Source of the DNA: Maribacter stanieri
Lineage (GTDB): Bacteria; Bacteroidota; Bacteroidia; Flavobacteriales; Flavobacteriaceae
Assembly: GCF_900112245.1 (NCBI RefSeq)
Contig: NZ_FOYX01000001.1
Span: 2,033,856 to 2,097,855 of the forward strand
Direction: 5' to 3'
Length of the DNA: 64,000 nucleotides
Part shown: positions 2,818 to 33,262 of the stretch, in pieces
Layout of the letters: each line of letters starts with the position of its first letter
How positions within the stretch are numbered: position 1 is the stretch's first letter
Notes under the pieces: model-generated
The model's database searches: none
What the model was told of the DNA's origin: nothing
Seen by the model: only the letters and a program-made list of their open reading frames with translations
Program-made: the position numbers and the translations under genes

Positions 2818-2860
2818 TAAATTTAGAAAGAACTAGAAAAGGAAGAAATGATTAAAATCA
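2818..2860 (-). promoter_or_regulatory. CRP/FNR-type promoter of the feo operon
   Basis: Reading leftward, the palindrome TGATTTTAATCA (2860-2849) is followed by 23 nt and then the -7-like box TAAATTTA (2825-2818). This is the recurrent architecture of the left half. It predicts a start of transcription near 2814 and a leader of about 55 nt before the DtxR-FeoA start codon. Confidence 0.6.
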
Positions 2861-2907
2861 GTGCAATTAAAGATTTGGTAACTAGAAAATGTTATTCAAT
2901 TAAAAGT

Positions 2908-3123
2908 TTAAATGCAATTTTTATGGGTTTCTAAATGATGTTTCAATAATTGCTTTAAACTCTCTAAATAATCTTGCATGGTCACTTGATCAATATGTGG
3001 ATGGTCATTTGTAGGTATCGTAAGAGGGTTTTCATCTAGAAACCGATAAAGCTCGGGGTAATTGGTTTCTATAGTGTTGGTAAGCTGAGTGATTTCTACG
3101 AGTACATTGCTTAAATCGTTCAT
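2908..3123 (-). CDS. Small conserved-type hypothetical protein
   Basis: A 71-residue acidic, helical soluble protein with the central stretch NYPELYRFLDENP. There is no signal peptide or membrane segment and I recognise no domain. It is kept as a real gene because it has its own promoter of the recurrent type (operator 3180-3191, box 3156-3149) and ends in an ordinary intergenic region. It shares the operator divergently with the universal stress protein gene at 3247, which suggests co-expression under the same condition. Its function is unknown. Confidence 0.6.
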   Translation of the reverse strand: MNDLSNVLVEITQLTNTIETNYPELYRFLDENPLTIPTNDHPHIDQVTMQDYLESLKQLLKHHLETHKNCI

Positions 3124-3148
3124 TTTTAGAATTGTTGAGTTTTAGACA

Positions 3149-3222
3149 TAAATATATTCCGTGATTTAATTTAAGCACATGACAGAGGTCATTTGAAAGC
3201 ATATTGAATACTGATATTTTTG
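3149..3222. promoter_or_regulatory. Bidirectional CRP/FNR-type promoter
   Basis: One palindrome, TGACAGAGGTCA (3180-3191), has a -7 box at exactly 23 nt on both sides: TATTTTTG (3215-3222) rightward to the universal stress protein, and TATATTTA (3156-3149) leftward to the 71-residue gene. The symmetry of the arrangement is visible in the sequence. The identity of the regulator is inferred. Confidence 0.65.
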
Positions 3223-3246
3223 TTTTTGACCATAAAGACACGCAAA

Positions 3247-4110
3247 TTGAAAACAATAGTATACGCTACAGATTATTCAAAGAATTCTGTTGAAGCATTG
3301 AAATATGCCTACTACTTAAATACCCAATTAGGTACTCGCTTAGTCATAATGCACGTATTCGATTATCCTACAGTCTTAGGTACCAAAGCACTTTCAGAAC
3401 CTTTTCCCAATTTAGAAAAGGACAATTTTAAAATGCATCGTGGCAAATTAGAGGAATTTTGTACCGAACACTTGGGCAATGATTGGAAAGAGTCTAATAT
3501 TCATTTAGAGATAAAAGAAAATAAATCTGTAATAAAAGGTATTTTTTCAAGTGCAGCTGAATGGCATGCAGATTTAATTTTAATTGGTATGAAAGGTGGT
3601 AGTGGTATTCGTGAAATAATAGTAGGAAGCACTACCAAACAACTTATTGAAAAAGCACCTTGTCCCGTTTTGGCAATACCTACTAAGGTTGGTTATAGAC
3701 AGATTAAAACAATTGTTTATGCTACAGATTTTGAAGAAGAAGATATTCGTACCATAAATCAACTTGTTGAAATAGCAGAGCCGTTGCAAGCAAAAATTCA
3801 CATTACACATATTTCTACTCAAGATGAATACAAAGGTGATATGCAGATGGAGTGGTTCAAAGATGCACTTAAAGAAAAAGTCAGCTACAAGAATATGATT
3901 TTTAAACTGGTACTATCAGATGATATCTTTAATGCACTTCGCATTTATTTAGGTGATGTTGGTGCAGATATGGTAGTCATGCTTGAAAGGGAAAAGAAAG
4001 GTTTTACAAAAAAATGGTTTCATAAAGACATTGTTAAAAAGATGGAATCATATGGTAAAATTCCCTTATTAAGTTTTAATGAATTTAATCATCAAACTCT
4101 CTATTATTAA
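3247..4110 (+). CDS. Universal stress protein, tandem UspA domains
   Basis: About 287 residues with two Usp domains. The first starts KTIVYATDYSKNSVEALK and ends with the ATP-binding pattern GMKGGSGIREIIVGST. The second starts KTIVYATDFE and lacks a clear copy of that pattern. I place the start at TTG 3247, because it gives the family-typical MKTIVYATDYS beginning, matches the ATG-started paralogue at 8155-9000, and lies just downstream of the predicted -7 box at 3215-3222. An earlier in-frame TTG at 3220 lies inside that box. Usp proteins are cytoplasmic nucleotide-binding stress factors with no single known reaction. The small membrane protein at 4134 follows after 23 nt. Confidence 0.88.
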   Translation: MKTIVYATDYSKNSVEALKYAYYLNTQLGTRLVIMHVFDYPTVLGTKALSEPFPNLEKDNFKMHRGKLEEFCTEHLGNDWKESNIHLEIKENKSVIKGIFSSAAEWHADLILIGMKGGSGIREIIVGSTTKQLIEKAPCPVLAIPTKVGYRQIKTIVYATDFEEEDIRTINQLVEIAEPLQAKIHITHISTQDEYKGDMQMEWFKDALKEKVSYKNMIFKLVLSDDIFNALRIYLGDVGADMVVMLEREKKGFTKKWFHKDIVKKMESYGKIPLLSFNEFNHQTLYY

Positions 4111-4133
4111 TAGAACCGTTTAAATAATTACTT

Positions 4134-4427: not shown

Positions 4428-4450
4428 ATTTTAAACTTCTTGGCTTCTAC

Positions 4451-4493
4451 TGATTTGCATCATGGTAATGATGTAATGTTGAACGTAATTTTA
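4451..4493 (+). promoter_or_regulatory. CRP/FNR-type promoter before the Bro-N gene
   Basis: Palindrome TGATTTGCATCA (4451-4462), a 23-nt gap, then TAATTTTA (4486-4493), 21 nt before the ATG at 4515. Confidence 0.6.
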
Positions 4494-4514: not shown

Positions 4515-5270
4515 ATGCTAGATACTAGTTTACCGCAAGAAGAACTAAATTACTTTCAACAACTGGCGTCTGTGGAGATTGATAATCAAATTTGGTTTGT
4601 AGCCGATGATGTTACTAAAATGTTGGCATTGAACGACCCAGTAAAAGTGTTGGAAATTTTAGATGAAGATGAACGAAATTTAGCTGAAATTTATAGGGAT
4701 GGTAAGTTGAAATCAAAGAACTTAATTTCTGAAAGTGGATTATATGCATTGATCTTACGAAGCGATACCGACAATGCCCATAAATTTCGAAAATGGATAA
4801 CCAACCATATATTACCATTACTTAGAGTTCAGGGATATTATACCACAAAACGTCTAGAAATACCAAACTTTGTTATTCGTTTTAATGATAATTGGAATAG
4901 GGTAGATAAGGGATATTTTTCTGTGTTGAGCGAATTGTTTATTCGTTTATATGGTCGATTTGAACACGAAGGTTATACCTTGCCAAGTAGGGCATTGAAC
5001 GGTAAAGAAATGCGTCCAGATATTAGTGTAGCCAATTATTTTGACGAATATTTAAAAGAAAAGCATCCCGAAAAAAGAGACAATTATAAAATTTATAAAC
5101 ATCGACTGCCCAATGGTAGGGAAATAGAAGCGAGACAATATCCAAATTACTTGCTTCCTGTTTTTATTGATTTTATTGATGCTGTATGGCTTCCTAATTA
5201 TGCCTATAACTATTTTAAGAGTAGAGATATGAAGGCATTGGCATATTTGCCTAAATTAATATTGAAATAG
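4515..5270 (+). CDS. Bro-N domain protein (prophage antirepressor-like) with P63C-like C-terminus
   Basis: 251 residues. The N-terminal 100 residues fit the Bro-N/antirepressor fold: IWFVADDVTKMLAL, then SESGLYALILRS and FRKWITNHILPLLR. The remainder (about 115-251) contains RALNGKEMRPDISVANYF and RQYPNYLLPVFIDFIDAVWLP, resembling the C-terminal module found in phage P63C-type proteins. Such genes are usually phage-borne DNA-binding regulators, but no phage genes surround this one. It carries the island's own promoter type, which suggests it has been recruited as a host regulator. The domain call is good and the role is unknown. Confidence 0.7.
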   Translation: MLDTSLPQEELNYFQQLASVEIDNQIWFVADDVTKMLALNDPVKVLEILDEDERNLAEIYRDGKLKSKNLISESGLYALILRSDTDNAHKFRKWITNHILPLLRVQGYYTTKRLEIPNFVIRFNDNWNRVDKGYFSVLSELFIRLYGRFEHEGYTLPSRALNGKEMRPDISVANYFDEYLKEKHPEKRDNYKIYKHRLPNGREIEARQYPNYLLPVFIDFIDAVWLPNYAYNYFKSRDMKALAYLPKLILK

Positions 5271-5293: not shown

Positions 5294-6103
5294 TCATTTC
5301 GAACTATAGAAAATCTTGGTTTTTTTGTTCAGATGTATAGTATCAATTTTTTTTGGGTTACCTGTAACGTATATTTTACCACTGCCTTGACCATTTATTT
5401 TAAAACGATCAGCTGCAAATACCTCGGTATCTTCAGAATTTAATGTGTGTAGGTACACGTCTTTAGCCAATAGTGCCCATGCAGATAATTTTGCTTTATT
5501 CTCAATGGTAGCACTTAATGATTTAGCTTTTCCTTTTATGCTAACCATACTTTTGTCTGCTTGGTTAACAATCACTTTATCTGCAATAATTTTCATTGAA
5601 GCTGCAGAAGTACCTTTTGCATCAATTTTTACATTTTGGGCATTTATAGATAAATTGCCCGTACCGGCTATCTCTGATATTAATTGAAAATCTGAACAAT
5701 CTACAATAAGGTTATAGGTTGAATCGCCCAAAGAATATATCGTTAAATTATTTGAAATTACTTTGTTATTAGCTTCTATAGAAGCCTTTTCTGATAGTAT
5801 TATATTTTTAGGTTCACTAACGTATAATATAATTTCTATAGAGCTGGCAAACATATTTTCTTGTACGGTAAATACTTTTAGAGTGCTATTTTGGTAATTC
5901 CATTTAATAATGTCCTTCAAACTTCGGTTTCCTTTCATCTGTAAACCATTGAAGTAAGTAGGGTATAGTGTTACACAAAGATTATCATGTATCTCTATTG
6001 TTTTTAAGTCATCTAAGGTCATATAGGTGCTAAAAGTTTTATTGTCTTGAGCTACTACGCAAAAGAAACATAACAACGTTATAAAACATACTGTTCTCTT
6101 CAT
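5294..6103 (-). CDS. Secreted GIN-domain (DUF2807-type) protein
   Basis: 269 residues with a cleavable signal peptide (about 1-18, ending near VVAQ). The rest is a repetitive beta-rich pattern typical of the putative auto-transporter adhesin head domain (DUF2807): alternating short strands with stretches such as IEANNKVISNNLTIYSLG and KINGQGSGKIYVTG. It is likely periplasmic or surface exposed. It diverges from the oxidoreductase at 6222 and appears to share the operator at 6157-6168 with it. The biochemical role of this family is not established. Confidence 0.75.
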   Translation of the reverse strand: MKRTVCFITLLCFFCVVAQDNKTFSTYMTLDDLKTIEIHDNLCVTLYPTYFNGLQMKGNRSLKDIIKWNYQNSTLKVFTVQENMFASSIEIILYVSEPKNIILSEKASIEANNKVISNNLTIYSLGDSTYNLIVDCSDFQLISEIAGTGNLSINAQNVKIDAKGTSAASMKIIADKVIVNQADKSMVSIKGKAKSLSATIENKAKLSAWALLAKDVYLHTLNSEDTEVFAADRFKINGQGSGKIYVTGNPKKIDTIHLNKKTKIFYSSK

Positions 6104-6125: not shown

Positions 6126-6199
6126 GTAATCTATGTAGGATTACAAAATTTAAAAATGACCTCAGTCATTACATATGATTGTAAAAGGCTATAGATTAA
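6126..6199. promoter_or_regulatory. Bidirectional CRP/FNR-type promoter
   Basis: Palindrome TGACCTCAGTCA (6157-6168). At 23 nt to the right is TAGATTAA (6192-6199) toward the MDR oxidoreductase, and at 23 nt to the left is TAGATTAC (6133-6126) toward the GIN-domain gene. Both boxes are imperfect matches to TAnnTTTG but have exactly the same spacing. Confidence 0.55.
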
Positions 6200-6221
6200 C
6201 ATTTTGAAAATTACAATATGT

Positions 6222-7241
6222 ATGAAGGCAGCGTATCTTGTTAAATATGGAAATGCCGAAAAGGCGTTTCAAATAGGGGAAGCCAATAAACCTCACCCTA
6301 AACCAAATCAAGTATTAATAAAAGTTGAGGCCTTCGGTTTAAATTTTGCAGATGTTATGGCGCGTTTGGGACTCTATAAAGCTGCGCCTAGATTACCTGC
6401 TATTTTAGGATATGATGTGGTAGGTAAAATAGAAGAAATTGGTGCAATGGTAGACCATGTAAAGCTAGGCGACAGGGTTGTTGCATTGACCAAGTTTGGC
6501 GGATACGCAGAATTTGCATTGGCAGACATAGATGTTGTACATAAAATACCTAATTCTTTCTCTGCAGGTGTTGCTGTTGCTCTGGCTACCCAGTATAGTA
6601 CAGCATATTTTTTAAGTCATAATATGGCCAATTTACAAGAACAAGACAGTGTACTTATACATGCCGCAGCCGGTGGGGTAGGAACGGCACTTGTACAAAT
6701 GGCATTGCTTAAAAAGTGTGTCGTTTTTGGTACTTGCGGTTCTCAAGAAAAAATAGCTTATCTAAAGAGTAACGGTGTGCAATACCCAATAAATTACCGA
6801 ATAAATGATTTTGAAAAAGTGGTTGGTAATGTAATGGAGAATAATGGGTTAGATGCGGTTTTTGATCCAGTTGGCGGGTTGTCGGTTAAAAAAGATTATC
6901 GGTTGCTTGCGGCTGGTGGCAGGGTATTTTCTTTTGGTGTTTCTAGTATGAATAAGACTAAAACCATATTTGGAAAATTACGTGTGCTTTGGCAATTTGG
7001 GTTATATCATCCAATTCAATTTTTGAGTGGTTCTAAGGGAATGATAGGAATTAATATGTTGAAAGTTGCAGAAGAAAATCCAAATAAAATTGCAAAGGTT
7101 ATGCAAGAGGTCATTCGCTTGACAGAAACAAAAATTCTTAAGCCACATATTGGTGGAGAATATCAAGTTGAACAACTTGCAGAGGCTCACGCATTTTTAG
7201 AATCTCGAAAATCAATGGGTAAAATTGTTATAAAATGGTAA
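6222..7241 (+). CDS. Zinc-independent quinone oxidoreductase-type alcohol dehydrogenase (MDR family)
   Basis: About 339 residues from ATG 6222 (MKAAYLVKYG, the usual MDR start). An in-frame TTG 18 nt upstream is less likely. The N-terminal GroES-like domain has LNFADVMARLGLY and ILGYDVVGKIEEIG. The Rossmann domain has the NAD(P)H-binding AAAGGVGTALVQMA near residue 150. Structural zinc cysteines are absent, as in quinone oxidoreductases. The downstream SDR gene starts 4 nt after the stop, so the two form an operon of reductases. The substrate is unknown; reduction of reactive enones or quinones is the usual activity of this subgroup. Confidence 0.85.
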   Translation: MKAAYLVKYGNAEKAFQIGEANKPHPKPNQVLIKVEAFGLNFADVMARLGLYKAAPRLPAILGYDVVGKIEEIGAMVDHVKLGDRVVALTKFGGYAEFALADIDVVHKIPNSFSAGVAVALATQYSTAYFLSHNMANLQEQDSVLIHAAAGGVGTALVQMALLKKCVVFGTCGSQEKIAYLKSNGVQYPINYRINDFEKVVGNVMENNGLDAVFDPVGGLSVKKDYRLLAAGGRVFSFGVSSMNKTKTIFGKLRVLWQFGLYHPIQFLSGSKGMIGINMLKVAEENPNKIAKVMQEVIRLTETKILKPHIGGEYQVEQLAEAHAFLESRKSMGKIVIKW

Positions 7242-7245
7242 TGTT

Positions 7246-8184
7246 ATGAAAAACAATTACTTGAAAAATAAAGTGGCTTTGGTAAGCGGCTCTAGTATGG
7301 GTATAGGTAAGGCAATTGCTTGGGAGTTGGTTCAGCAAGGTGCAAAAGTAATTTTAAATGGGCGTGATCATGAAAAGTTATTACGTATAAAAAATGACTT
7401 TTCTACTAACGGTTTTAAGGTGAAGTCAGTAATTGCAGACATTCGGGATCAAGATGAATGCAAGTTTTTGGTTGAGCAGACCATAAGTATTTATGGTCAA
7501 CTAGATATTTTGGTGAATAACGCCGGCATGAGTAGTAGAGGGTCTATTGAACATTCTGCAGATAAAAATTTTACTATTCTTTCTGAAACTAATTTTACCG
7601 GTGCCGCCCACTTAAGTAAATATGCAATACCCTTTCTAAAAGAAACAAAAGGTCATGTTGTATTTATTAATAGCGTGGCCGGCTTAAGAGGAATGCCTTT
7701 CAATTCCGCTTACAGTGCTTCTAAAATGGCTCAAGCAGCCCTGTCAGAAGCATTAAGAATAGAGTTATATGATTTTGGTATTCATGTTGGAATTGCCTTT
7801 GTGGGGTTTACTCAAAACGATCCGGATAAAAAAATTTTGGACGTCGATGGTTCACTTGTGTATTTACCTAAACGTAACAATTTGCGATTGGCCACTGCGG
7901 AATCTGTGGCAAAGAGTATTCGTATAATGATTGAAAAAAGGAAAAAAAGAATAACCTTAACAGGATTGGGAAATTTAGCCAATTTTATATTTCGTTATTT
8001 TCCTATATTTAGTAATTGGTTGATCTGGCTTAATCGTGAAAAAATAAAAAGCCAGTATACAATGATCGGCGGTAAAAAAGTAATTGAAATTGCTCAGGTA
8101 AATAACCAATATCAAGAAATTATTACAGGGGTAGAAGGTAAGGTAAAAACGGTTTTAAAGTCCCCCAATATTAAAACTTATTAA
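7246..8184 (+). CDS. Short-chain dehydrogenase/reductase
   Basis: 312 residues. The cofactor glycine motif is SGSSMGIGKA near residue 15, followed by the NADP-favouring NGRD. LVNNAG is near residue 92, and the catalytic Ser is in INSVAG with YSASK (Tyr/Lys) around residue 155. A C-terminal extension of about 80 residues beyond the core, with a hydrophobic patch (IFRYFPIFSNWLIWL), may contact the membrane. The gene follows the MDR gene by 4 nt and overlaps the 3' end of the convergent universal stress protein gene by 30 nt. The substrate is unknown. Confidence 0.85.
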   Translation: MKNNYLKNKVALVSGSSMGIGKAIAWELVQQGAKVILNGRDHEKLLRIKNDFSTNGFKVKSVIADIRDQDECKFLVEQTISIYGQLDILVNNAGMSSRGSIEHSADKNFTILSETNFTGAAHLSKYAIPFLKETKGHVVFINSVAGLRGMPFNSAYSASKMAQAALSEALRIELYDFGIHVGIAFVGFTQNDPDKKILDVDGSLVYLPKRNNLRLATAESVAKSIRIMIEKRKKRITLTGLGNLANFIFRYFPIFSNWLIWLNREKIKSQYTMIGGKKVIEIAQVNNQYQEIITGVEGKVKTVLKSPNIKTY

Positions 8185-9000
8185 AGGCACGGTACTTCTC
8201 TTTGCCATTTGTTTTACCTTGTCTAATTGAAAGTGTTTTTCATAAAAAGTAGAATTTTTTCTCTCTAACATAGCTACTATACCAGCGTTGTTATTTTCAA
8301 GGTACCATAGCAAGTCTTCCAAAATATTTTCTGAAAAAATTAGGTCAAATTCTATTTTGGCATAGTTTACTTTTGCTCTTACGTTTTCTTTAAACCATTC
8401 CATTTTGGCCTCTATTTCGTATTTCTTTCCTGTAGTTATATGTACAACCCTAATTTGCGCATCAAATTTTTTAGCAATTTTTGCCAATTTATTAATAGCA
8501 AAAACATCTGCGGACTCAAAATCTGTCGCATAGATCATTTTATTTAACTGTGTGTTTTCATCTCGTTGAGGTACGATCATTAATGTACAAGGAGATTTTT
8601 TCAGAAGTGAAATAGCTGTGTTTCCTAATAGAAATTCTTTAACCGCACTTGTTCCTTTAGCACCAACACATATCAGGTCTACGTTTAACTTAATAGCTTT
8701 TTCTAAAAGGCTATTCGTAACCGAATTTTCTTCGTCAACCACAAAATTTAAATTCAAATTTTTAACTGGTTCGCCTATATATTGTGCAAAAAAGTCTTTT
8801 AACATCTTGCGATTTTTGACATAGTGTTTTTTTTCTTTTTTCAAATAGGTTAAAGTTACGGTACTGGCAAGTGTTATAGGTATTTCAAAAACGTGCATGA
8901 TAATTAATTTAGCATTGAATTTTTTAGCTAAAATATGTGCAAACTTTAATGCCGAAACAGAATTTTCTGAATAATCGGTAGCATATAGAATAGTCTTCAT
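8155..9000 (-). CDS. Universal stress protein, tandem UspA domains
   Basis: 281 residues beginning MKTILYATDYSENSVSALK, with the ATP-binding pattern GAKGTSAVKEFLLGNT in domain one and a second domain starting KMIYATDFES. It is closely similar in layout to the protein at 3247-4110, down to the shared sequence MEWFK in domain two, so the two are paralogues. The promoter at 9026-9068 is of the island type. The stop overlaps the convergent SDR gene by 30 nt. Confidence 0.88.
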   Translation of the reverse strand: MKTILYATDYSENSVSALKFAHILAKKFNAKLIIMHVFEIPITLASTVTLTYLKKEKKHYVKNRKMLKDFFAQYIGEPVKNLNLNFVVDEENSVTNSLLEKAIKLNVDLICVGAKGTSAVKEFLLGNTAISLLKKSPCTLMIVPQRDENTQLNKMIYATDFESADVFAINKLAKIAKKFDAQIRVVHITTGKKYEIEAKMEWFKENVRAKVNYAKIEFDLIFSENILEDLLWYLENNNAGIVAMLERKNSTFYEKHFQLDKVKQMAKRSTVPLISFNIGGL

Positions 9001-9025: not shown

Positions 9026-9068
9026 TGAAACTAAGGTTGTCGCTTTTTAAAAAAAATGATGAAGGTCA
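9026..9068 (-). promoter_or_regulatory. CRP/FNR-type promoter of the second universal stress protein
   Basis: Leftward: palindrome TGACCTTCATCA (9068-9057), a 23-nt gap, then TAGTTTCA (9033-9026), 25 nt before the ATG at 9000. Confidence 0.6.
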
Positions 9069-9088: not shown

Positions 9089-9131
9089 TGATTTAGATCA
9101 TTTGTTTAAGGGTGTTACTCTTATAGATTTA
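9089..9131 (+). promoter_or_regulatory. CRP/FNR-type promoter of the 150-residue coiled-coil gene
   Basis: Palindrome TGATTTAGATCA (9089-9100), a 23-nt gap, then TAGATTTA (9124-9131), 25 nt before ATG 9157. It lies back to back with the leftward operator at 9057-9068, so this pair of divergent genes has two separate operators rather than one shared one. Confidence 0.6.
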
Positions 9132-9156
9132 CATTACAGGGATAAAATTGTTGATT

Positions 9157-9606
9157 ATGAAGGATTTAAACTATAGTAATGATTTAAAGTTTTTAGATAA
9201 TGGCCCATGGGACGAGCTTTATGTTTTGACCAATCACTGGGTTTCAGATCTTGAGTTTTATAGGGATGATCTTAAGTTTTTAAATCATCTAATAGAAAAA
9301 TATTTCATTTGGCTTTCAAAAGAAGAAAATCTGCAAATAATTAAAGAGCTAAAATTAGGTTTACAGGAAACCAATATAATGGTTAATGATTTACTTGAAA
9401 AAGTAAGTAAGCATAGAAATAGATTAGGTCTTTTAGTGAAAGATGCCAATAGAAAAGATGCAGGTGTAATAGTCATGGAGCATGAACATTTGGAAGAGGA
9501 AATAATCCGCTTTGTTTCATTTTTTAGATTAAACAGAAAAGAGACTTTTAAACTAACCGAATATATAATGGATAGCGAAGAACTTTCAATAATTATTAGA
9601 GGATAG
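9157..9606 (+). CDS. Helical protein, paralogue of the 130-residue protein at 15884
   Basis: 149 residues from ATG 9157; an in-frame TTG 9 nt earlier is possible. The protein is all-helical and charged. It has an aromatic N-terminal pattern W-x6-H-W-x3-L-E-F-Y-x-D-D-L-K-F, then a long amphipathic helix. The protein at 15884-16276 has the same pattern (HSELAFWEDELKSF), similar length and the same regulatory context, so I consider them paralogues of a small unnamed family. There is no signal peptide. A stress-associated scaffold or binding protein is possible, but no function can be stated. Confidence 0.6.
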   Translation: MKDLNYSNDLKFLDNGPWDELYVLTNHWVSDLEFYRDDLKFLNHLIEKYFIWLSKEENLQIIKELKLGLQETNIMVNDLLEKVSKHRNRLGLLVKDANRKDAGVIVMEHEHLEEEIIRFVSFFRLNRKETFKLTEYIMDSEELSIIIRG

Positions 9607-10526: not shown

Positions 10527-10569
10527 TGACCCTTAGTTTTTAATTATATGTATCAACTTTTTAACTTAA
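10527..10569 (+). promoter_or_regulatory. Degenerate CRP/FNR-type promoter candidate
   Basis: TGACCCTTAGTT (10527-10538) keeps only the left half-site. TAACTTAA lies at the standard 23 nt (10562-10569), just before ATG 10580. It is included because the spacing fits, but it is weak. Confidence 0.3.
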
Positions 10570-15690: not shown

Positions 15691-15767
15691 AACCTCTTTA
15701 ACTATACCTTTATTGATGGTTACCAAATATAAGCAAAAGCACATACTTGATTCAATTTTGGTTACTT

Positions 15768-15810
15768 ACAAGATATATTTAAAAAGCGAAATGTTTAATG
15801 ATAAAAATCA
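15768..15810 (-). promoter_or_regulatory. CRP/FNR-type promoter of the CheB-CheR/kinase operon
   Basis: Leftward: palindrome TGATTTTTATCA (15810-15799), a 23-nt gap, then TATCTTGT (15775-15768). The box is imperfect. The predicted start of transcription (near 15764) lies upstream of both candidate start codons. Confidence 0.5.
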
Positions 15811-18342: not shown

Positions 18343-18416
18343 CAAAACTATTTCAATAGAATTAGTCATAAAATGATTCAGGTCATTTACAAACTCTTCA
18401 TAATCGGCTTCTTTTG
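18343..18416. promoter_or_regulatory. Bidirectional CRP/FNR-type promoter (ftsH / lipoprotein)
   Basis: Palindrome TGATTCAGGTCA (18374-18385). Leftward at 23 nt is a perfect box TAGTTTTG (18350-18343) for ftsH. Rightward at 23 nt is TTCTTTTG (18409-18416), 19 nt before the ATG at 18436. Confidence 0.65.
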
Positions 18417-20201: not shown

Positions 20202-20244
20202 TAAAAATAACCAGGTCAGTTATAGAAAACCATGATTCTAATCA
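20202..20244 (-). promoter_or_regulatory. CRP/FNR-type promoter of the third universal stress protein
   Basis: Leftward: palindrome TGATTAGAATCA (20244-20233), a 23-nt gap, then TATTTTTA (20209-20202), 15 nt before ATG 20186. Confidence 0.6.
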
Positions 20245-20292: not shown

Positions 20293-20341
20293 TGATCTTA
20301 ATCATTTTAAAAAAAGAAGTTATTCGTCAATTTTATATTTA
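20293..20341 (+). promoter_or_regulatory. CRP/FNR-type operator before the VOC protein
   Basis: Perfect palindrome TGATCTTAATCA (20293-20304). The position 23 nt downstream reads CAATTTTA (20328-20335), a partial box; a better one, TATATTTA, begins at 20334. The operator is convincing, but the exact -10-like element is uncertain. Confidence 0.5.
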
Positions 20342-20375
20342 CTTATAAAGTATAGTGTCAACTAAAACTTATAGA

Positions 20376-20801: not shown

Positions 20802-20844
20802 TGACCTAAGTCATTTTCAACCTTTTTTATTAGATGTAGTTTTA
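20802..20844 (+). promoter_or_regulatory. CRP/FNR-type promoter of the sigma-like gene
   Basis: Palindrome TGACCTAAGTCA (20802-20813), a 23-nt gap, then TAGTTTTA (20837-20844). The predicted leader before ATG 20915 is about 65 nt, longer than at most other sites. Confidence 0.6.
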
Positions 20845-23448: not shown

Positions 23449-23479
23449 TGAGCTGGTATTTATATTTGATTCTAAAATA

Positions 23480-23508
23480 GAAACAGGAGACCTAAGGTCT
23501 CCTGTTTC
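23480..23508 (-). terminator. Hairpin 6 of the array
   Basis: 13-bp perfect stem GAAACAGGAGACC/GGTCTCCTGTTTC with a 3-nt loop. On the minus strand it is followed by TATTTTAG. It lies 31 nt before the start of the membrane protein gene. Confidence 0.55.
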
Positions 23509-23664
23509 CTTTGAAGTGTTCGTTTTATTCTTTGTGTTACATCTATCCTTAAGTCATCTTATTGCTAAAATGATATAGGGGTGATTTCGACAATTAACAA
23601 TTCGAACACTTTCCGGTATTTCTTACCTTACAATAATAATACCTTTTCTTAATATGTTTTTTAA

Positions 23665-23697
23665 AAAGGACCGGAATGCCAGAATATCCGGTCCTTT
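23665..23697 (-). terminator. Hairpin 5 of the array, terminator-like on the minus strand
   Basis: 11-bp stem AAAGGACCGGA/TCCGGTCCTTT with an 11-nt loop. The minus-strand 3' side continues into a T tract. Confidence 0.6.
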
Positions 23698-23863
23698 ATT
23701 ATAGATATTGCAATTCTTTAAATTTTGAACGCAGACCAAGTAATTATGTACCAACTACATATTCAGCTTGTAATTCTAGTAAAAGAAATATTTGCAATAT
23801 CATTATATGACTACTAAGGCATTACTGCTTAGAAGCCTTTTTTGTAATTACATTTTAAAGAAA

Positions 23864-23889
23864 AAACAGGAAGCCAAAACTTCCTGTTT
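23864..23889 (-). terminator. Hairpin 4 of the array, terminator-like on the minus strand
   Basis: 10-bp stem AAACAGGAAG/CTTCCTGTTT with a 6-nt loop. On the minus strand it runs into CCTGTTTTTTCTTT, a classical intrinsic terminator shape. Confidence 0.65.
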
Positions 23890-24048
23890 CTCATAAAGAA
23901 TAGAATTTGTTGTTGCCTTAAATCAATCTTTTAATTAACCTATTGCTAAGTTGATTCGAAAATTAATATAGATTACTACAGCATCTTTTTCTTTACTATG
24001 ATCTGTACTATCTTACGATAATCCAAATCAATGCTTTATAATTTTATA

Positions 24049-24080
24049 AGAAACCAAGTCATCGCAATGACTTGGTTTCT
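24049..24080 (-). terminator. Hairpin 3 of the array
   Basis: 14-bp perfect stem AGAAACCAAGTCAT/ATGACTTGGTTTCT with a 4-nt loop. The flanks are moderately T-rich on the minus strand. Confidence 0.55.
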
Positions 24081-24266
24081 AAGAAGTCGGTATTTTTTTC
24101 AAATTACACTTACACTGATCCTTTTTTATGATTATTTCTAAACATATGAAGAATTCAAATGGTCTTTTGAATTTGAAATACTTTCTTCTTTTTGAATTGA
24201 ATCTTGGTTCCCTCGAACAAGATTCAAATAGCTATTTATTTCAAAGAACTTAGATTAATTATAGTG

Positions 24267-24309
24267 CTAAAATAATACGAACATTATCTTTTTAAAATGA
24301 CCTAGATCA
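24267..24309 (-). promoter_or_regulatory. CRP/FNR-type promoter pointing into the gene-less hairpin array
   Basis: Leftward: palindrome TGATCTAGGTCA (24309-24298, overlapping the stop codon of the protease gene), a 23-nt gap, then TATTTTAG (24274-24267). The spacing is identical to the gene promoters, but no coding sequence follows until 23448. Confidence 0.55.
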
Positions 24310-25478: not shown

Positions 25479-25521
25479 GTAAACTAAGATTAGTGATTCA
25501 GGTGTGAAATGATTTAAGTCA
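25479..25521 (-). promoter_or_regulatory. CRP/FNR-type promoter of the HtrA-like gene
   Basis: Leftward: palindrome TGACTTAAATCA (25521-25510), a 23-nt gap, then TAGTTTAC (25486-25479). The predicted leader is about 120 nt. The rest of 25354-25688 holds only a possible 18-codon signal-like frame at 25609-25665. Confidence 0.5.
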
Positions 25522-25688
25522 TACAGTTTTTTACAGAATCTCTTGCCTTAATGTATCATCTAATATTATTGAATTAAATAGGAACATTTAACAAGTATCG
25601 ATTTAATCATGAAATTATTTCTTACCAAGATTGTAGTTTTTTTTGTATCTTTTTTATCCCCATAAGCTTGAACTTAATTGGTTATACC

Positions 25689-26075
25689 ATGATCAGTATC
25701 CTTATAATTGAAGATGATAATGATATACGGGAAAATACTTCTGAACTTTTAGAACTCGAAGGGTATGTTACGTTAACAGCATCCAACGGAAAAATTGGTT
25801 TAGAAAAGATTAAATCTAATGTTCCAGATTTAATCTTATGTGATCTTCTTATGCCCGAAATGGATGGATTTACCGTATTAAGTCACCTTGGTCATTATCC
25901 AGATTTAAAAAGAATTCCATTTGTTTTTTTTAGTGCTAAATCTGAAAAACTTGAAATTAAAACTGGTATAGATGCTGGTGCGGATGGGTATTTAGTAAAG
26001 CCTTTTGAGCTGGAAGATTTGTTGTCCATTATTGAGAAGTGTCTAAATAAAGGAAAGAGTTCTTCATTACAATAA
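25689..26075 (+). CDS. Stand-alone response regulator receiver protein
   Basis: 128 residues from ATG 25689 (MISILIIEDDNDIREN). Acidic pocket is EDD, phosphoacceptor Asp is in LILCDLLMPEMDG, Ser/Thr is in FFSAKS, and Lys is in YLVKPFE, so all switch residues are intact. There is no output domain. It may act by protein contact or as a phosphorelay partner for the orphan kinase at 11352-12719. An in-frame TTG at 25668 is an unlikely start. Confidence 0.88.
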   Translation: MISILIIEDDNDIRENTSELLELEGYVTLTASNGKIGLEKIKSNVPDLILCDLLMPEMDGFTVLSHLGHYPDLKRIPFVFFSAKSEKLEIKTGIDAGADGYLVKPFELEDLLSIIEKCLNKGKSSSLQ

Positions 26076-26130: not shown

Positions 26131-26173
26131 TGATTCAAATCATTTAGCTGCTTTATCGTATTAAGTACTTTGG
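26131..26173 (+). promoter_or_regulatory. CRP/FNR-type operator before the release-factor-like gene
   Basis: Perfect palindrome TGATTCAAATCA (26131-26142), 48 nt before ATG 26191. The box region reads GTACTTTG (26166-26173), a partial match at the standard 23-nt gap. Confidence 0.5.
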
Positions 26174-26190: not shown

Positions 26191-27363
26191 ATGTATACTG
26201 CTGAAAAACTACCATTGCCAAAATCTACCTTTGAATCTTTAATGGCAAAAAAAGCCCTTCATTGTGTTTCCATATATCTTACAATGGATAAAAAAGGAAT
26301 GGAACAAAATCTTCACCTAGCTCAAGCTATATTAAAAAATTGTCTAGAAGAGGTGCGCACGGTATTATTGCAATATCAATTACACGATAATGAAGTAGAA
26401 GATTATCTTGATCCAATAACACAATTATTAGATAGAGTGGATTTATGGCGAAACCCATCGGATGGACTGGCTATTTTCTTAAATCCAGATACTGGATTGC
26501 AGTATTTTCAAGTACCACTTTTATTTGAAATACAAACATATGTAGCAAACCATTTTTATCTAAAGCCTTTATTACCAATGTACCACAATAACGGTACCTA
26601 TTACCTACTTGAACTTAGTAGAGATTATGTTAAGTTGTACAAAGCATCACGATATCAATTTAAGGATTTATTTGTTGAAGATTTTGCGCCAAAGCGGCTA
26701 GAAGAAGCCGTTGGGTTTGATTATAGACCGAAAATGTTACAATTTAGAAATGCGCAGAATTTGGGTAGGGCTGGTGTATTTCACGGTCATGGAGAAGGAA
26801 AGGATGATGATAAAAAAGAGATGGTAAAATTTTTTAGGGTTTTAGATAAAGGGATAAAAAAGACAATTGAAAATCAAAATGCACCTTTAATATTAGCCTG
26901 TACCGACTATTTGTATAGTATTTATAAACAGACAAGTACTTATAAAAATATTTATGATCGGCATTTGGGGGGTGATCCAGAATTTAAAGTAAAGACTTCA
27001 TTACATCAAGATTCTTGGGAGTTAATCGAACCCTATTTTAAAATTTTAGAATCTGAAATGATACAAAAATTTAAGGATTTAAGTTATTCGCAAAAAACCT
27101 CATACGAAATAGATGAAATACTTAAAGCAATTTTTCAAGGTACTGTAGAGGTTCTATTCGTTGAAAATGAAAGTGATGTTTTTGGTACGTTCAATTTAAA
27201 AACCAATAGAGTAACTGTAGAGAAATCAAAAGATATAAGTAATACTTCTTTAACCAATTTAGCTGCTATAGAATGCTATAAGCTTGGTGGAAAGGTATTT
27301 CTTTTACCTGCTGAACATATGCCAATGAAAAATAGTAATCTAAATGCAATATTTAGGTATTGA
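26191..27363 (+). CDS. Bacterial archaeo-eukaryotic release factor-like protein (baeRF family 7 type)
   Basis: 390 residues, soluble. The order fits the baeRF family: an N-terminal alpha/beta domain with SIYLTMDKKG, a central region with YYLLELSRDYVKLYKASRY and a short HGHGEGKDD stretch where the GGQ-like loop would be, and a C-terminal L7Ae-like domain with TVEVLFVENESDVFG and IECYKLGGKVFLLPAEHMP. The family was described from comparative genomics as ribosome-linked stress factors, with experimental data sparse. The loop here reads HGHGEG instead of GGQ. It is preceded by an island-type operator and by the receiver gene. Confidence 0.72.
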   Translation: MYTAEKLPLPKSTFESLMAKKALHCVSIYLTMDKKGMEQNLHLAQAILKNCLEEVRTVLLQYQLHDNEVEDYLDPITQLLDRVDLWRNPSDGLAIFLNPDTGLQYFQVPLLFEIQTYVANHFYLKPLLPMYHNNGTYYLLELSRDYVKLYKASRYQFKDLFVEDFAPKRLEEAVGFDYRPKMLQFRNAQNLGRAGVFHGHGEGKDDDKKEMVKFFRVLDKGIKKTIENQNAPLILACTDYLYSIYKQTSTYKNIYDRHLGGDPEFKVKTSLHQDSWELIEPYFKILESEMIQKFKDLSYSQKTSYEIDEILKAIFQGTVEVLFVENESDVFGTFNLKTNRVTVEKSKDISNTSLTNLAAIECYKLGGKVFLLPAEHMPMKNSNLNAIFRY

Positions 27364-29027: not shown

Positions 29028-29669
29028 TTACATCTCTGAAACTTTTTTAGAATTGAAATAATCTAATATCTGAATGGCTTTTCGGTCGGTTACCTCTTCA
29101 AAGTTTTTATAAAATTGCCCTACGGCCCTAAAATTGTCTGGTTGTAAAATACAAATGACTTCTTCTACATGTTCTAAATTACTTATTTTATTAATAGCAG
29201 ATGGTGGTGCTACGGGTATTGCTATTATAATTTTAGAAGGTTTTTGTTTGTGTACCAAAGCTATTGTTGCCATAAGGGTATTACCGGTTGCAATACCATC
29301 ATCAACAATTATTACCGTCTTATTCTGTAATTTTTTAGGAGAGCGATTTTTATAATATTGTTTGTGTCGCTCTTTTAGTGTTCTACGAATACGTTCGGTC
29401 TCTCTTTCAATATAATAATTATCTAAAATATTAGAATTTGAAAGTATTATACTTTCAAGGCTAACTGCGCCAATCGCATATTCTTTATTATTTGGATGAC
29501 CTATTTTTTTAGTCAGTACCACATCTAATGGCGCATTTAAAAAGGTAGCAACAGATGCTCCAATAGGTAAGCCACCTCTTGGTATTGCCAACACTATTAC
29601 TTCATCATCTTTGTATTTTGCTAATAGTGTTGCTAATTGATTTCCTGCATCATTTCTATCTTTAAACAT
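29028..29669 (-). CDS. Phosphoribosyltransferase-family protein
   Basis: 213 residues from ATG 29669 (MFKDRNDAGNQLA). I chose this start because the hydrolase gene stops at 29687 and the longer in-frame start would overlap it. PRPP-binding motif VIIVDDGIATGNT is near residue 122, and there is a flexible-loop region with KKIGHPNNKEYAIGAV. The family hydrolyses or transfers phosphoribosyl groups; this subgroup is often paired or fused with an alpha/beta hydrolase, as here, and its substrate is not established. Confidence 0.82.
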   Translation of the reverse strand: MFKDRNDAGNQLATLLAKYKDDEVIVLAIPRGGLPIGASVATFLNAPLDVVLTKKIGHPNNKEYAIGAVSLESIILSNSNILDNYYIERETERIRRTLKERHKQYYKNRSPKKLQNKTVIIVDDGIATGNTLMATIALVHKQKPSKIIIAIPVAPPSAINKISNLEHVEEVICILQPDNFRAVGQFYKNFEEVTDRKAIQILDYFNSKKVSEM

Positions 29670-29686
29670 TGTTTTGTTTTTTAATT

Positions 29687-30328
29687 TTACAAATACATAG
29701 CAAACCAACTAGCTGATATTTGTGCCACTTCATTTAATTTGCCCGATTCTTCGAATAAGTGACTTGCATTGGGTATTATTTCTAGTTTTCTTTGACATTG
29801 TAATTTCTGATAAGCTTTTTCATTAAGCTCAATAACAACTTCATCATTGCCGCCAACTATTATTAATGTGGCAGCTGTTATCTTATTAATGTCGTTTAAA
29901 GCAAGGTCTGGTTGCCCCCCTCTTGAAACTACCGCTTTAATTGTTTTTTCGTAAAATGCAGCGGCCCTTAATGCCGAGGCAGCACCTGTACTTGCTCCAA
30001 AATATCCAAGAGATAAATTTTTTGTTTCTTTTTGTTGTTGAACCCATTGCGTTACGTCAATAAGGCGTAGGGTCAGTAAATCTATATCAAATCTATTTTT
30101 GTAAACACTATCTTCATCTTCTGTCAATAGATCAAAAAGTAAGGTGGCCAAATCATTTTTTCGTAAAACTTCGGCAACAAAGTTGTTACGTGGGCTTAGA
30201 CGACTACTTCCGCTACCATGAGAAAAAATGACCAAACCAATAGGATTTTTAGGTATAACTAAGTTTCCTTTTAGTATAACTCCGTCTATCTGTATATTGA
30301 TGACTTTACGTTTATAGTCATTATTCAT
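29687..30328 (-). CDS. Dienelactone hydrolase-like alpha/beta hydrolase
   Basis: 213 residues. Oxyanion stretch SHGSGSSRLSPRN is near residue 36, nucleophile elbow GYFGASTGAAS (Ser) near 110, Asp in VGGNDEVV near 164 and His in NASHLFEE near 192, so the catalytic triad is complete. It is co-transcribed with the phosphoribosyltransferase gene 17 nt downstream. The pairing recurs in bacterial stress loci, but the physiological reaction is unknown to me. Confidence 0.85.
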   Translation of the reverse strand: MNNDYKRKVINIQIDGVILKGNLVIPKNPIGLVIFSHGSGSSRLSPRNNFVAEVLRKNDLATLLFDLLTEDEDSVYKNRFDIDLLTLRLIDVTQWVQQQKETKNLSLGYFGASTGAASALRAAAFYEKTIKAVVSRGGQPDLALNDINKITAATLIIVGGNDEVVIELNEKAYQKLQCQRKLEIIPNASHLFEESGKLNEVAQISASWFAMYL

Positions 30329-30351: not shown

Positions 30352-30394
30352 TAAATGTAATGGTAGGGCTGAATTATACAAATGACCCAAGTCA
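30352..30394 (-). promoter_or_regulatory. CRP/FNR-type promoter of the hydrolase/phosphoribosyltransferase operon
   Basis: Leftward: palindrome TGACTTGGGTCA (30394-30383), a 23-nt gap, then TACATTTA (30359-30352), 23 nt before ATG 30328. Confidence 0.6.
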
Positions 30395-30628: not shown

Positions 30629-31609
30629 TTATAGATTGTTTAATTTTTTTTCTTGTTTCTCTAATTTTCTAAAGTAGCCTCTAGTTAAAAAATTATGCTT
30701 TAGTGCTTCCATGTTTTCGTTGAATCTTTCTGTACCCTGTTCTATATTTTCCATGCTTTTCTCAAGCTGGTTTACAAACAAAGAGTCATTTGCCAGATAA
30801 GAAATAGCGCCTTGTCCATCATTGATTTCAGAAATGATGAGATTTAAGTTCTTAGACATTTCATCAATTTCAAAAGAGGTTGTCTCTAGGTTTTTAATTA
30901 CGTTTTTTATTTTTTCGCCAGAAATGGTATCGTTGAATAATATGTCAGCAACACTTTCCTTAAAATTTAGTTGCCCAACTATATCGTTTAAATGAGTAAT
31001 AGTTGAATTTGCTTTATAGCTTGTATATTTTAAATTGACCATTGTTTTATACAAGTCGTTCGCCATTATAGTATCATTGAGTAACCTGCCTAAAGTTCCT
31101 TGCCCATTTGTTAAGGTCTTTGAGATTTTCAATAAATCGGCAGTCAGTAAAGCGGCATTTTCATTGGTAATACTTAAAGTACTCATCATATCTTGAGTGC
31201 CTATTTTGTTTGAAGATAATAGTTCATCTCCTGGAGTTATTAAGGAAGAAGTACCTAAACCAGGAATAATATTGATTAACATGCTGCCAACCAATCCATT
31301 TGTGCCAATACTGGCAATGGCATTTTTTTTGATATGGTGACGCATATTATCTTGTATTACCATACGAACTTGTATGGTAGTATCGTTGATCATTTCTATG
31401 CCATTTACAGTGCCAACATTAATACCTGAAAATCGAACGTTATTTCCATTTTGTAGTCCGGTAGCATTTTTAAATACAGCTGTAATTTCAAATGTTTTAC
31501 TAAACATATTTTGTCTATTTCCAATAAGGTATGCTGCAAATAGAAGAAGTATGGTGCCTAAAACAACAAAAATACCCAACCTCAAATTTTCTAATTTTGT
31601 TTTTGCCAT
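30629..31609 (-). CDS. MlaD-type MCE domain lipid transport protein
   Basis: 326 residues. It has an N-terminal transmembrane anchor (about 10-28), then one MCE domain (about 35-115) with FKNATGLQNGNNVRFSGI and the hydrophobic loop GLVGSMLINI. A long helical C-terminal region (about 150-326) probably forms the coiled part of the hexameric lipid channel. It is the periplasmic component of an Mla-like ABC system moving phospholipid between membranes. The ATPase gene ends 4 nt upstream. Confidence 0.88.
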   Translation of the reverse strand: MAKTKLENLRLGIFVVLGTILLLFAAYLIGNRQNMFSKTFEITAVFKNATGLQNGNNVRFSGINVGTVNGIEMINDTTIQVRMVIQDNMRHHIKKNAIASIGTNGLVGSMLINIIPGLGTSSLITPGDELLSSNKIGTQDMMSTLSITNENAALLTADLLKISKTLTNGQGTLGRLLNDTIMANDLYKTMVNLKYTSYKANSTITHLNDIVGQLNFKESVADILFNDTISGEKIKNVIKNLETTSFEIDEMSKNLNLIISEINDGQGAISYLANDSLFVNQLEKSMENIEQGTERFNENMEALKHNFLTRGYFRKLEKQEKKLNNL

Positions 31610-31613
31610 AATT

Positions 31614-32423
31614 TTATTTTTTAAAGAATGCTTCTACTTTTGGGTCTGTCGATGCCGATAATTCTGAATAGGTGCCTTCGGCATAGTTAATTCCATCTAC
31701 TAAAAGAACCATTCGTTCAGAAATTACTCTTGCACAGTCCACATCATGAGTAATAATCAAGGAACTTGTACCGTACTTTTTTTGAATACTTCTCATTAGC
31801 TCAATTATTTCTTTTGCCGTTATGGGATCTAAACCACTGGTAGGCTCGTCATATAGAATAATCTTTGGTTTCAATATTAGTGTTCGTGCTAGTGCTACAC
31901 GTCTTTTCATACCACCAGAAAGTTCATCTGGCATTAAATTCATGGTATGTGCTAAACCAACATTTTCTAAGGCTTCCAAAACAAGCGGAGTCGTATCTTT
32001 TACATTACCCAGTTTGTCTCTGTGTCGTCGCATCGGAAATTCTAAATTTTCGCGAACTGTCATAGAATCATACAAGGCACTGCCCTGAAAAAGAAAACCA
32101 ATATCTGAGCGTAATTTATCTAAGGTTTGTCGATCTAATGTCGATATTTCTTTGCCCATTACTTCTATATAGCCGCTGTCGGGAGCCATTAATCCTACTA
32201 GACATTTAATCATAACCGATTTTCCAGAACCCGATTTCCCCATAACAACTAGATTTTCACCTTCGTAAAGCACTAAGTTGAATCCATTTAAAACATGGTT
32301 GTCACCAAAAGTTTTGGTGACATTATTTATGCGAATGACTGCGTTTCCTTCTAAATGGTCTATCAACTTATGCTGTTCATTATTTTTTATTTTTTGTGTA
32401 TCCTTATTCATATCATAATTCAT
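31614..32423 (-). CDS. MlaF-type ABC transporter ATP-binding protein
   Basis: About 269 residues from ATG 32423 (or ATG 32411). Walker A is GKSGSGKS, signature LSGGMKRRVALARTL, Walker B IILYDEPTSGLDP, and the switch His is in ITHDVDC. The start overlaps the permease stop by 11 nt. It energises the MlaE permease with MlaD as the substrate channel. Confidence 0.9.
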   Translation of the reverse strand: MNYDMNKDTQKIKNNEQHKLIDHLEGNAVIRINNVTKTFGDNHVLNGFNLVLYEGENLVVMGKSGSGKSVMIKCLVGLMAPDSGYIEVMGKEISTLDRQTLDKLRSDIGFLFQGSALYDSMTVRENLEFPMRRHRDKLGNVKDTTPLVLEALENVGLAHTMNLMPDELSGGMKRRVALARTLILKPKIILYDEPTSGLDPITAKEIIELMRSIQKKYGTSSLIITHDVDCARVISERMVLLVDGINYAEGTYSELSASTDPKVEAFFKK

Positions 32424-33216
32424 AGAAAATATCAGAAACAAATACTGCAATAAAATCAACTATAAATAATAATAAAGATGCCATGACCACGGCCGTGTTT
32501 GCAGCTATACCGACGCCTACAGTTCCTTTTTTACAATGATAGCCCTTAAAACAACCAACCAGACCAATGACAAAACCAAAAAAGAATGATTTTACGGTTG
32601 CAGGTATTAAATCTCCAAAGCTAAGTGCATCAAAAACTGTATTAAAATAGAGTTGAAAGGAAACTTGACCTTTCAGGTTCTCTACAAGCGCCGAACCTAA
32701 TAATGCAATTAAATCTCCAAATACTACTAAAATTGGAATCATTAATGTTGTAGCTAGAATACGTGTTACAACTAAATACTTAAAAGGGTTGGTGCCTGAT
32801 ACTTCCATTGCATCTATCTGTTCTGTAACTCTCATGGAACCTAATTCGGCACCTATACCCGATGCAATTCTACCAGCGCAAATTAGGGCGGTTATTACAG
32901 GACCTATTTCCCTTACTATAGAAATACCTACCATATTCGGCATCATTGATACTGCGCCAAACTGAATCATTGTAGGTCTAGACTGTAATGTAAGTACCAA
33001 ACCTATAATGAAACCGGTCATACCTACTAGCATTAAAGATCGGTTACCCATTTGATAACATTGGCGCAATAACTCTTTAAATTCGAAAGGCACAGAGAAT
33101 AGTTCTTTAAAAAAACGACGTGCGAAAAAAGACAGTTCTCCAATTTGTATAAAAAACTGTTTTATTCGCTCAAGTATTTTAGATATTTCAAATACTGAGG
33201 GTATTCTCTCTGCCAT
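32413..33216 (-). CDS. MlaE-type permease
   Basis: About 267 residues from ATG 33216 (MAERIPSVFEIS). Five to six membrane segments carry the MlaE family stretches IGLVLTLQSRP, REIGPVITALICAGRIASG, GSMRVTEQIDAMEVSG and GCFKGYHCKKGTVGVG. It is the first gene of the permease-ATPase-MCE operon. An in-frame TTG at 33222 lies inside the predicted -7 box. ATG 33216 sits at or within a few nt of the predicted transcription start, so the mRNA may be almost leaderless. Confidence 0.88.
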   Translation of the reverse strand: MAERIPSVFEISKILERIKQFFIQIGELSFFARRFFKELFSVPFEFKELLRQCYQMGNRSLMLVGMTGFIIGLVLTLQSRPTMIQFGAVSMMPNMVGISIVREIGPVITALICAGRIASGIGAELGSMRVTEQIDAMEVSGTNPFKYLVVTRILATTLMIPILVVFGDLIALLGSALVENLKGQVSFQLYFNTVFDALSFGDLIPATVKSFFFGFVIGLVGCFKGYHCKKGTVGVGIAANTAVVMASLLLFIVDFIAVFVSDIFYEL

Positions 33217-33219
33217 ACC

Positions 33220-33262
33220 CAAATGTAAAAGGAAACAGTAGTTCTTAAAATGACTAATGTCA
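33220..33262 (-). promoter_or_regulatory. CRP/FNR-type promoter of the Mla operon
   Basis: Leftward: palindrome TGACATTAGTCA (33262-33251), a 23-nt gap, then a perfect box TACATTTG (33227-33220). This is the rightmost site of the regulon in the window. Confidence 0.62.

Follow-up and report, generated by a model that had tools for sequence, protein, structure and literature searches.

In a 64,000-nucleotide (nt) stretch of the Maribacter stanieri genome (hereafter the window, C9:2033856-2097855 of a 4.46-Mb genome), together with 60 kb added on its left for the extent of the feature, we identified a gene island whose promoters share a palindromic operator, TGAY-N4-RTCA, located 23 nt upstream of the Bacteroidota promoter box TAnnTTTG (an N23 module). 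The island probably represents one regulon of a two-component system, the response regulator of which joins a receiver domain to a CRP/FNR-type activator. The evidence consists of the operators and their fixed geometry, their conservation and their occurrence together with the gene of the regulator, the pairing of kinase and regulator genes, and the conservation and covariation seen in two non-coding arrays. The original prediction had described a 30-kb island with one CRP/FNR-type promoter module; it did not anticipate the full length of the island, the fusion of the probable regulator to a receiver and its pairing with a kinase, or non-coding targets.

Geometry and conservation of the operators

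All 16 perfect TGAY-N4-RTCA palindromes originally predicted in intergenic DNA were found at their coordinates by a scan of the window sequence, and additional perfect matches lie inside genes at 13359, 38199 and 54411. The 17 operator-N23-TAnnTTTG pairs previously counted in the interval 2818-33262 were also obtained when up to two mismatches in the box were accepted, compared with a mean of 0.046 and a maximum of 2 in 500 dinucleotide shuffles of the interval; with at most one mismatch there were 11 pairs, against a shuffle mean of 0.004. These pairs were counted in intergenic DNA, and the predicted gene starts at 18238 and 3220 were shifted in the mask, so that the promoters there are intergenic. 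The saccharide half of the window, past the island end, contains no intergenic operator and two genic ones, in agreement with the claim that it is free of such sites.

The predicted extent of 30 kb proved too small. Intergenic operators span C9:1987970-2067117, approximately 79 kb, and continue to the left past the window start, so that the interval described originally is the right-hand part of the island. The 11.2 kb of intergenic island DNA contain 40 intergenic operators, compared with a mean of 0.71 and a maximum of 3 in 300 shuffles; there are none in the 14 kb before the island and none in the 30.7 kb after it. No tRNA gene was found beside the island in the window or in the 60 kb to its left. 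In the spacing spectrum of the 40 operators, 33 pairs with at most one mismatch fall at 23 nt, whereas the other 60 spacings have a mean of 1.0, and a chance origin of the pairs is ruled out by this spectrum and the shuffles. The palindrome alone was rejected as a signal, because its genome-wide count (319) hardly exceeds that of the reversed pattern (274); the signal is therefore carried by intergenic position and spacing. The genome-wide scan for operator-N23-box that had been proposed as a check gave 75 sites at no more than one mismatch, compared with 10 for the reversed control.

According to PMC9723704, the sigma-A box of mapped Flavobacterium psychrophilum promoters occupies positions -12 to -5. 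With a gap of 23 nt, the operator would therefore extend from -47 to -36 and the island operators would be centred at -41.5 relative to the start, the class II position, which agrees with the earlier placing near -41.5. The 34 operators having a box with at most one mismatch are followed, in promoter orientation, by T at what would be -35, -34 and -33 in 34/34, 29/34 and 25/34 cases. In PMC7366714, a TTTG element of Bacteroides fragilis is located where this T run falls, and F. johnsoniae is stated to have yielded no motif at -33. Of 47 operator-box rows (up to two mismatches), 28 have a box that ends 16-40 nt ahead of the following gene. The arrangement resembles class II CRP/FNR promoters in the TGA-N6-TCA palindrome, the inferred centre at -41.5, the usual presence of one site per promoter, and a regulator of CRP fold. 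It differs from them in the N-terminal receiver of the regulator, in the Bacteroidota box TAnnTTTG, and in the second operator found 22 bp upstream in other Bacteroidota orders.

The operators of the window and the genes that they precede are as follows (mismatches refer to the box).

2849..2860, minus strand: operator, one-mismatch module of a FeoA-like gene, 1671-2759 (named by eye)
3180..3191, plus strand: operator, zero-mismatch module of a universal stress protein (Usp) gene, 3220-4110; one-mismatch box on the other strand
4451..4462, plus strand: operator, one-mismatch module of a BRO-N gene, 4515-5270
6157..6168, both directions: operator with two-mismatch boxes towards 5294-6103 and 6204-7241
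9057..9068, minus strand: operator, two-mismatch module of a Usp gene, 8155-9000
9089..9100, plus strand: operator, one-mismatch module of a small helical protein gene, 9148-9606
10527..10538, plus strand: near-match operator upstream of 10580-11275
15799..15810, minus strand: operator, two-mismatch module of a CheB-CheR-PAS gene, 12700-15744, followed by a kinase gene, 11352-12719
18374..18385, minus strand: operator, zero-mismatch module of an FtsH gene, 16343-18301; one-mismatch box on the other strand towards 18436-18840
20233..20244, minus strand: operator, one-mismatch module of a Usp-like gene, 19380-20186 (named by eye)
20293..20304, plus strand: operator, two-mismatch module of a glyoxalase-fold gene, 20355-20741
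20802..20813, plus strand: operator, one-mismatch module of 20915-21610; the gap is one base longer in genome G025
24298..24309, minus strand: operator TGATCTAGGTCA, one-mismatch module of non-coding array W
25510..25521, minus strand: operator, two-mismatch module of an HtrA-like gene, 24307-25353
26131..26142, plus strand: operator, one-mismatch module of a baeRF gene, 26191-27363
30383..30394, minus strand: operator, one-mismatch module of hydrolase and phosphoribosyltransferase genes, 29687-30328 and 29028-29708
33251..33262, minus strand: operator, zero-mismatch module of Mla-type transporter genes, 32413-33222, 31614-32459 and 30629-31609

The near-match at 10527 is credible, as the orthologous gene in two relatives (G019 and G014) has a perfect operator and a correctly spaced box; those at 27420 and 28292 were assessed by inspection. 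The operator at 25510..25521 sits between the HtrA-like gene and a gene for a lone receiver (25668-26075). The FeoA-like region in 1671-2759 follows, in one frame, a winged-helix-like part and a membrane segment (by eye).

The module is conserved. Its 23-nt spacing peak recurs around the regulator gene in all nine relatives examined, and the proposed check of orthologous promoters found the module upstream of 77 of 91 orthologues of module genes, compared with 15 of 115 for other genes (at least 40% identity; matches below 40% identity or 60% of the length were left out). In the promoter alignments by gene, which also include weaker, non-orthologous Usp matches, the inner bases of the operator vary while the core, the spacing and the box hold, for example upstream of the hibernation-factor gene. 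At 80 named Bacteroidota loci the spacings comprised 117 pairs at N23, 82 at N45 and 25 at N46. A separate class I promoter was considered for the N45 peak and rejected, since the N45/N46 logos revealed a second, degenerate operator at N23, that is, tandem operators 22 bp apart. The tandem type is located upstream of TAnnTTTG in other Bacteroidota orders (various loci among L079-L148); it matches N23 in frequency among Cytophagales-type, Chitinophagaceae and unplaced loci, and is rare in Flavobacteriales (9 versus 45). Clade labels were assigned by hand, with 23 loci not placed (22 unplaced and 1 unknown).

The position of an operator is in itself no proof of activation, and the same sites, by covering the -35 region, could mediate repression that is relieved on stress. 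We consider this very improbable: a single fixed spacing and phase (23 nt, with the second operator at 45 nt) fits contact with the polymerase and would be needless for a steric block.

The likely regulator, its kinase and their co-occurrence with the module

Seven matches to the CRP-type helix-turn-helix (HTH) were found in the genome, six of them over the cut-off, and one lies in the island. The regulator had been predicted to lie outside the window, and the likely candidate is indeed outside it yet within the island, beside a kinase gene.

C9:2021174-2022247: regulator gene, 357 amino acids (aa), receiver, cyclic-nucleotide-monophosphate (cNMP)-binding and HTH_Crp_2 domains, 11.6 kb left of the window
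C9:2018056-2021208: kinase gene, 1050 aa, multi-PAS histidine kinase, upstream of and overlapping the regulator gene

The domain matches of the regulator are PF00072 (4.3e-28), PF00027 (2.6e-21) and PF13545 (7.1e-15), and a CRP/FNR body encoded in the island, together with the class II geometry, supports the CRP/FNR-type reading of the operator. Asp54 and Lys106 of the receiver are invariant in 19/19 aligned rows, which cover the regulator, the paralogue on contig 6 and 17 of 29 other loci. At 73 of the 80 named loci a same-strand histidine kinase core ends within 240 nt upstream of the receiver-CRP gene. The pair would thus constitute a two-component system, with predicted phosphotransfer.

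FNR has clustered N-terminal cysteines that hold an Fe-S oxygen sensor, and cAMP-CRP has a PRxA-type Arg in its phosphate-binding cassette. The island regulator has no such cysteine cluster, its only cysteines being Cys53, Cys119 and Cys235, and no cAMP-type cassette with that Arg was seen by eye in the corresponding region, GDFIGQLSLLHAAGTYVENAV. The receiver is therefore its likely input. A predicted structure, used as support and of low confidence in the linker and parts of the barrel (predicted local distance difference test, pLDDT, 74; predicted template modelling score, pTM, 0.41), matched by fold 50 listed PDB chains, all of the CRP/FNR family. Among the 60 PDB matches listed of 381, each covers one stretch, the receiver or the CRP body, and never both. 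No description of a receiver-CRP fusion or of its regulon was found in the open-access literature, which was searched for both and covers few of the subscription papers, and a term search of PMC8510549, PMC9239204, PMC7159879 and PMC4558063 returned nothing on such a fusion.

The kinase-regulator operon is preceded by a leader of approximately 340 nt and by two operators spaced 28 bp from each other (C9:2017648-2018056; L009:3793-4201), hinting at possible autoregulation. In genome G011 the receiver and CRP parts are in two frames (G011:C1:1001204-1002266), and modules and RNA arrays persist there. The lone receiver and the CheB-CheR/kinase pair of the window may feed into the same system.

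The module also accompanies the regulator gene. Among 36 genomes of the genus, including M. stanieri itself, the 15 with the regulator contain 4-30 strict modules and the 21 without it 0-4 (kinship uncorrected), and the reversed control gave no strict module in any of the 60 genomes searched.

Two arrays of structured non-coding units

No gene lies close behind two of the modules, one at 24298 in the window and the other at C9:2023351, which is 10.5 kb to the left of the window. Each is followed by an array of repeated units, and the two arrays are homologous.

Window 23472..24262, minus strand: array W, four units of ~187 nt with hairpin ends near 24051, 23862, 23666 and 23479, ~790 nt in total
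C9:2022920-2023315, left of the window start: array R, two units of ~187 nt, 395 nt in total

In this genome each unit ends in a hairpin and a T run. The consensus fold contains a hairpin at the 5' end, a long arm with a GNRA loop at its tip, and a terminator. In each unit 12 pairs are changed on both sides, a number reached by none of 500 shuffles and lower in slid controls, the folds being favoured over their slid versions by having been derived from the same sequences. The R alignments comprise 10 of 12 arrays, without those of G025 (near-identical to G000) and G012, and for rows L162, L166 and L167 the starts and ends were chosen by hand. A covariance model built from unit 2 and run against 41 chosen sources matches W units 2 and 4 (E ~4e-19) and gives a weak match to unit 1 (1e-5); these three W units had no part in building it.

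Of the 60 genomes, 12 have strong matches to array R (71-100% identity), and every one of these 12 has the regulator; the counts include a second search over the 60 genomes with stricter filters. In the genus the array is present in 12 of 15 genomes with the regulator and in 0 of 21 without it (Fisher 3.6e-7, kinship uncorrected). Two genomes, G006 and G075, have weak R hits of ~35-40 nt. Array W has strong matches in 9 of the 60 genomes, all of them among the 12, and G067 and G082 have weak W matches. Of the 12 R arrays, 11 are preceded by an operator with TAnnTTAG at N23, and the operator is TGACCTAGGTCATTTT in 9 of the 11; since the R promoters are among the best-conserved operators, they may be strong targets. 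In Winogradskyella thalassocola the covariance model detects three units (E 2.6e-17, 6.8e-17 and 2.1e-7), present as a promoter plus RNA repeated three times at steps of 451-452 bp, each copy with its own operator and box; the second half of the third copy differs (by eye).

A search of Rfam gave no match at the gathering score for window 1-34000, and sub-threshold hits for R and W (best 29.1 bits versus a cut-off of 56 for R, and 30 versus 47 for W). The arrays thus appear to be a structured RNA family not listed in Rfam, a novelty judged from Rfam and not from a paper search aimed at the RNA. Their RNAs would be made and would act as small RNAs, and base-pairing is a first guess at their action. 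It is quite unlikely that the arrays are instead tiny genes, whether decayed or simply unrecognised, or nothing more than clusters of terminators. In favour of this alternative, the covariance model leaves W unit 3 unmatched and gives weak antisense hits at the hairpins. Against it stand the absence of any ATG-initiated open reading frame longer than 21 codons on the array strand of R or W (W span 23449-24256), the conservation of R in 11 relatives at 71-98% nucleotide identity, the compensatory changes, and the triple promoter-RNA arrangement in Winogradskyella. FnrS of enterobacteria and DrrS of mycobacteria are low-oxygen small RNAs. The likeness would lie in a small RNA as the target of a low-oxygen activator, and the difference lies in the tandem ~187-nt units and the GNRA-capped arm found here.

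Possible other readers, predicted target genes and known survival regulons

A second cluster of N23 modules is located on contig 7, at 540-645 kb (L061, L062, L063, L065 and L066), where modules precede, among others, HemN-, Fnr- and CcoNO-like genes (the last 232 nt downstream) and more Usp genes (named by eye). Its operators favour TGATAAATATCA, often followed by TA. On contig 6 a second receiver-CRP paralogue lies beside a Usp-like gene with the module. An N4 preference sets the island sites (8 of 34) apart from the contig-7 and contig-6 sites (17 of 19). A sharp split in operator specificity between the island and contig 7 is not claimed, as it was seen in this genome and is not clean in relatives.

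The island sites might accordingly be read mainly by another CRP/FNR protein, for instance the Fnr-like one (C7:551917 region) or the contig-6 paralogue, leaving the island regulator as one input among several. The recognition helices ATETAIR and ATESLIR are nearly alike, the contig-7 and contig-6 modules have the same core and spacing, and eight stretches surrounding the contig-6 type, from genomes that lack the island regulator, contain 20 N23 pairs, compared with a mean of 0.7 at other spacings. Strict modules nevertheless track the island regulator, no strong RNA-array match was found without it, and the two clusters of this genome have different N4 and flank preferences; we therefore regard a different main reader as rather unlikely.

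Several observations weigh against a single regulon under the receiver-CRP regulator. Its recognition helix is closely similar to those of at least two other CRP-type proteins of the genome, so that other such proteins may read some or all sites, and the N4 preference is weaker in relatives (71/141). Two genomes with the regulator, G033 and G036, have only 4 and 2 strict sites, and G004, G009 and G033 have the regulator and no RNA array found in these searches. The R array of G012 lacks the module and terminators in the scan, and further pair types were unexceptional for unit 1, being reached by 73 of 500 shuffles. Co-occurrence would also arise if one 80-kb block were inherited whole, and related genomes are not independent. 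Finally, the island gene set is mostly not beside the regulator in the named loci (Usp 26/80, Hsp20 10/80, flanks up to 10 kb), and a dormancy island throughout the phylum is therefore not claimed.

Under the preferred reading, that of one regulon of the receiver-CRP protein, we infer from sequence that the regulator reads the island sites and activates transcription, and likewise the nature of its inducing signal. The multi-PAS kinase would sense low energy or oxygen and phosphorylate Asp54 of the receiver, a step proposed because the residues are intact. The CRP body, as a dimer, would bind TGAY-N4-RTCA at -41.5, adjoining the TTT at -35 to -33; TGACCTAGGTCA is a sequence that it is predicted to bind. 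The bound regulator would recruit RNA polymerase to TAnnTTTG promoters by class II activation, polymerase contact being suggested by the fixed phase. The output would be survival proteins and tandem structured non-coding RNAs.

The predicted targets in the window include Usp, FtsH, HtrA-like, baeRF, phosphoribosyltransferase and Mla-type transporter genes. To its left, Pfam and sequence reading identified an S30AE hibernation factor, DUF2267, the large subunit of ribonucleotide reductase (RNR), DUF302 and two PfkB genes. The island also encodes M50 and CBS pieces, a rhodanese plus Lactamase_B protein (persulfide-dioxygenase-like), a pyridine-nucleotide reductase, Hsp20, a P-type ATPase, two BON proteins (one by eye), phosphoenolpyruvate synthase and many Usp (by eye). 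These are family names, and not every listed gene has its own module. The M50-CBS protease is split in two open frames (L008:12178-12570 and 12658-13302), as is FeoB, identified by eye (window 929-1714 with C9:2033332-2034765).

A family of small helical proteins has six members, five encoded in the island and the sixth on contig 7 (window 9148-9606 and 15884-16276; L009:10362-10769; L010:13615-14058 and 14157-14567; L066:9307-9765), with Leu, Trp and two His invariant in the six rows. Four of the six genes (9148, L009:10362, L010:13615 and L066:9307) follow a module with at most one mismatch. No convincing Pfam match was obtained for the three members tested, and the predicted fold is a three-helix bundle (pLDDT 84).

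The gene set had originally been read as a low-oxygen, redox or stationary-phase programme. The low-oxygen reading is still circumstantial, although it is strengthened by the module shared with the HemN-, Fnr- and CcoNO-like genes. A trigger other than oxygen (starvation, redox, nitric oxide or stationary phase) is a real possibility, if not the one that we favour. It would suit a regulator without clustered cysteines, and the genes for the hibernation factor, FtsH and Usp are consistent with energy stress of whatever kind. The shared module at the genes named by eye on contig 7 points instead to oxygen, as do the closest analogues, DosR and lxa, which respond to low oxygen.

The DosR (DevR) regulon is under two-component control by a NarL/LuxR-type response regulator, and it includes RNR, a P-type ATPase and HPF; its metalloprotease Rip3 is an M50-CBS protein. 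In Mycobacterium tuberculosis, PMC5309233 lists HspX, PfkB, Rip3 and universal stress proteins in this regulon. The island resembles it in its probable two-component control and in overlapping survival gene families, and differs from it in the receiver-CRP fusion, the phylum and the promoter. The lxa locus of Burkholderia cenocepacia, as given in PMC6127331, comprises 50 genes, among them those for six Usp, one heat-shock protein, one BON protein and a phosphofructokinase; it shares these four families with the island, in a different phylum, the comparison being one of gene content. The common Usp/Hsp20/PfkB/BON/M50-CBS set is weak alone, because the families are widespread. In PMC11841059, the NmpRSTU system of Myxococcus xanthus exerts two-component control over an oxygen-utilisation regulon and uses a palindromic operator, and in these two respects it is like the island system; unlike it, NmpRSTU is NtrC-type and sigma-54 dependent and has seven promoters.

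The most general interpretation, which we regard as evenly balanced, is that of a widespread Bacteroidota two-component system whose response regulator is a CRP-type activator, with a single operator at -41.5 in Flavobacteriaceae and, in other orders, a tandem pair near -41.5 and -63.5. In some of the Flavobacteriaceae this system would control a dormancy island, and the best-conserved targets there would include, instead of genes, a new family of small RNAs that are arranged in tandem, are GNRA-capped, have a terminator each and have been amplified in cassettes of promoter plus RNA. The analysis provides a predicted activator-promoter geometry for Bacteroidota that is testable base by base, activators at TAnnTTTG promoters being, in our judgement, little known. 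It also suggests that the Usp/Hsp20/PfkB survival programme of mycobacteria and Burkholderia is found under an unrelated regulator in another phylum, to which, if the proposal is true, a structured RNA family would be added as an output of the regulon.

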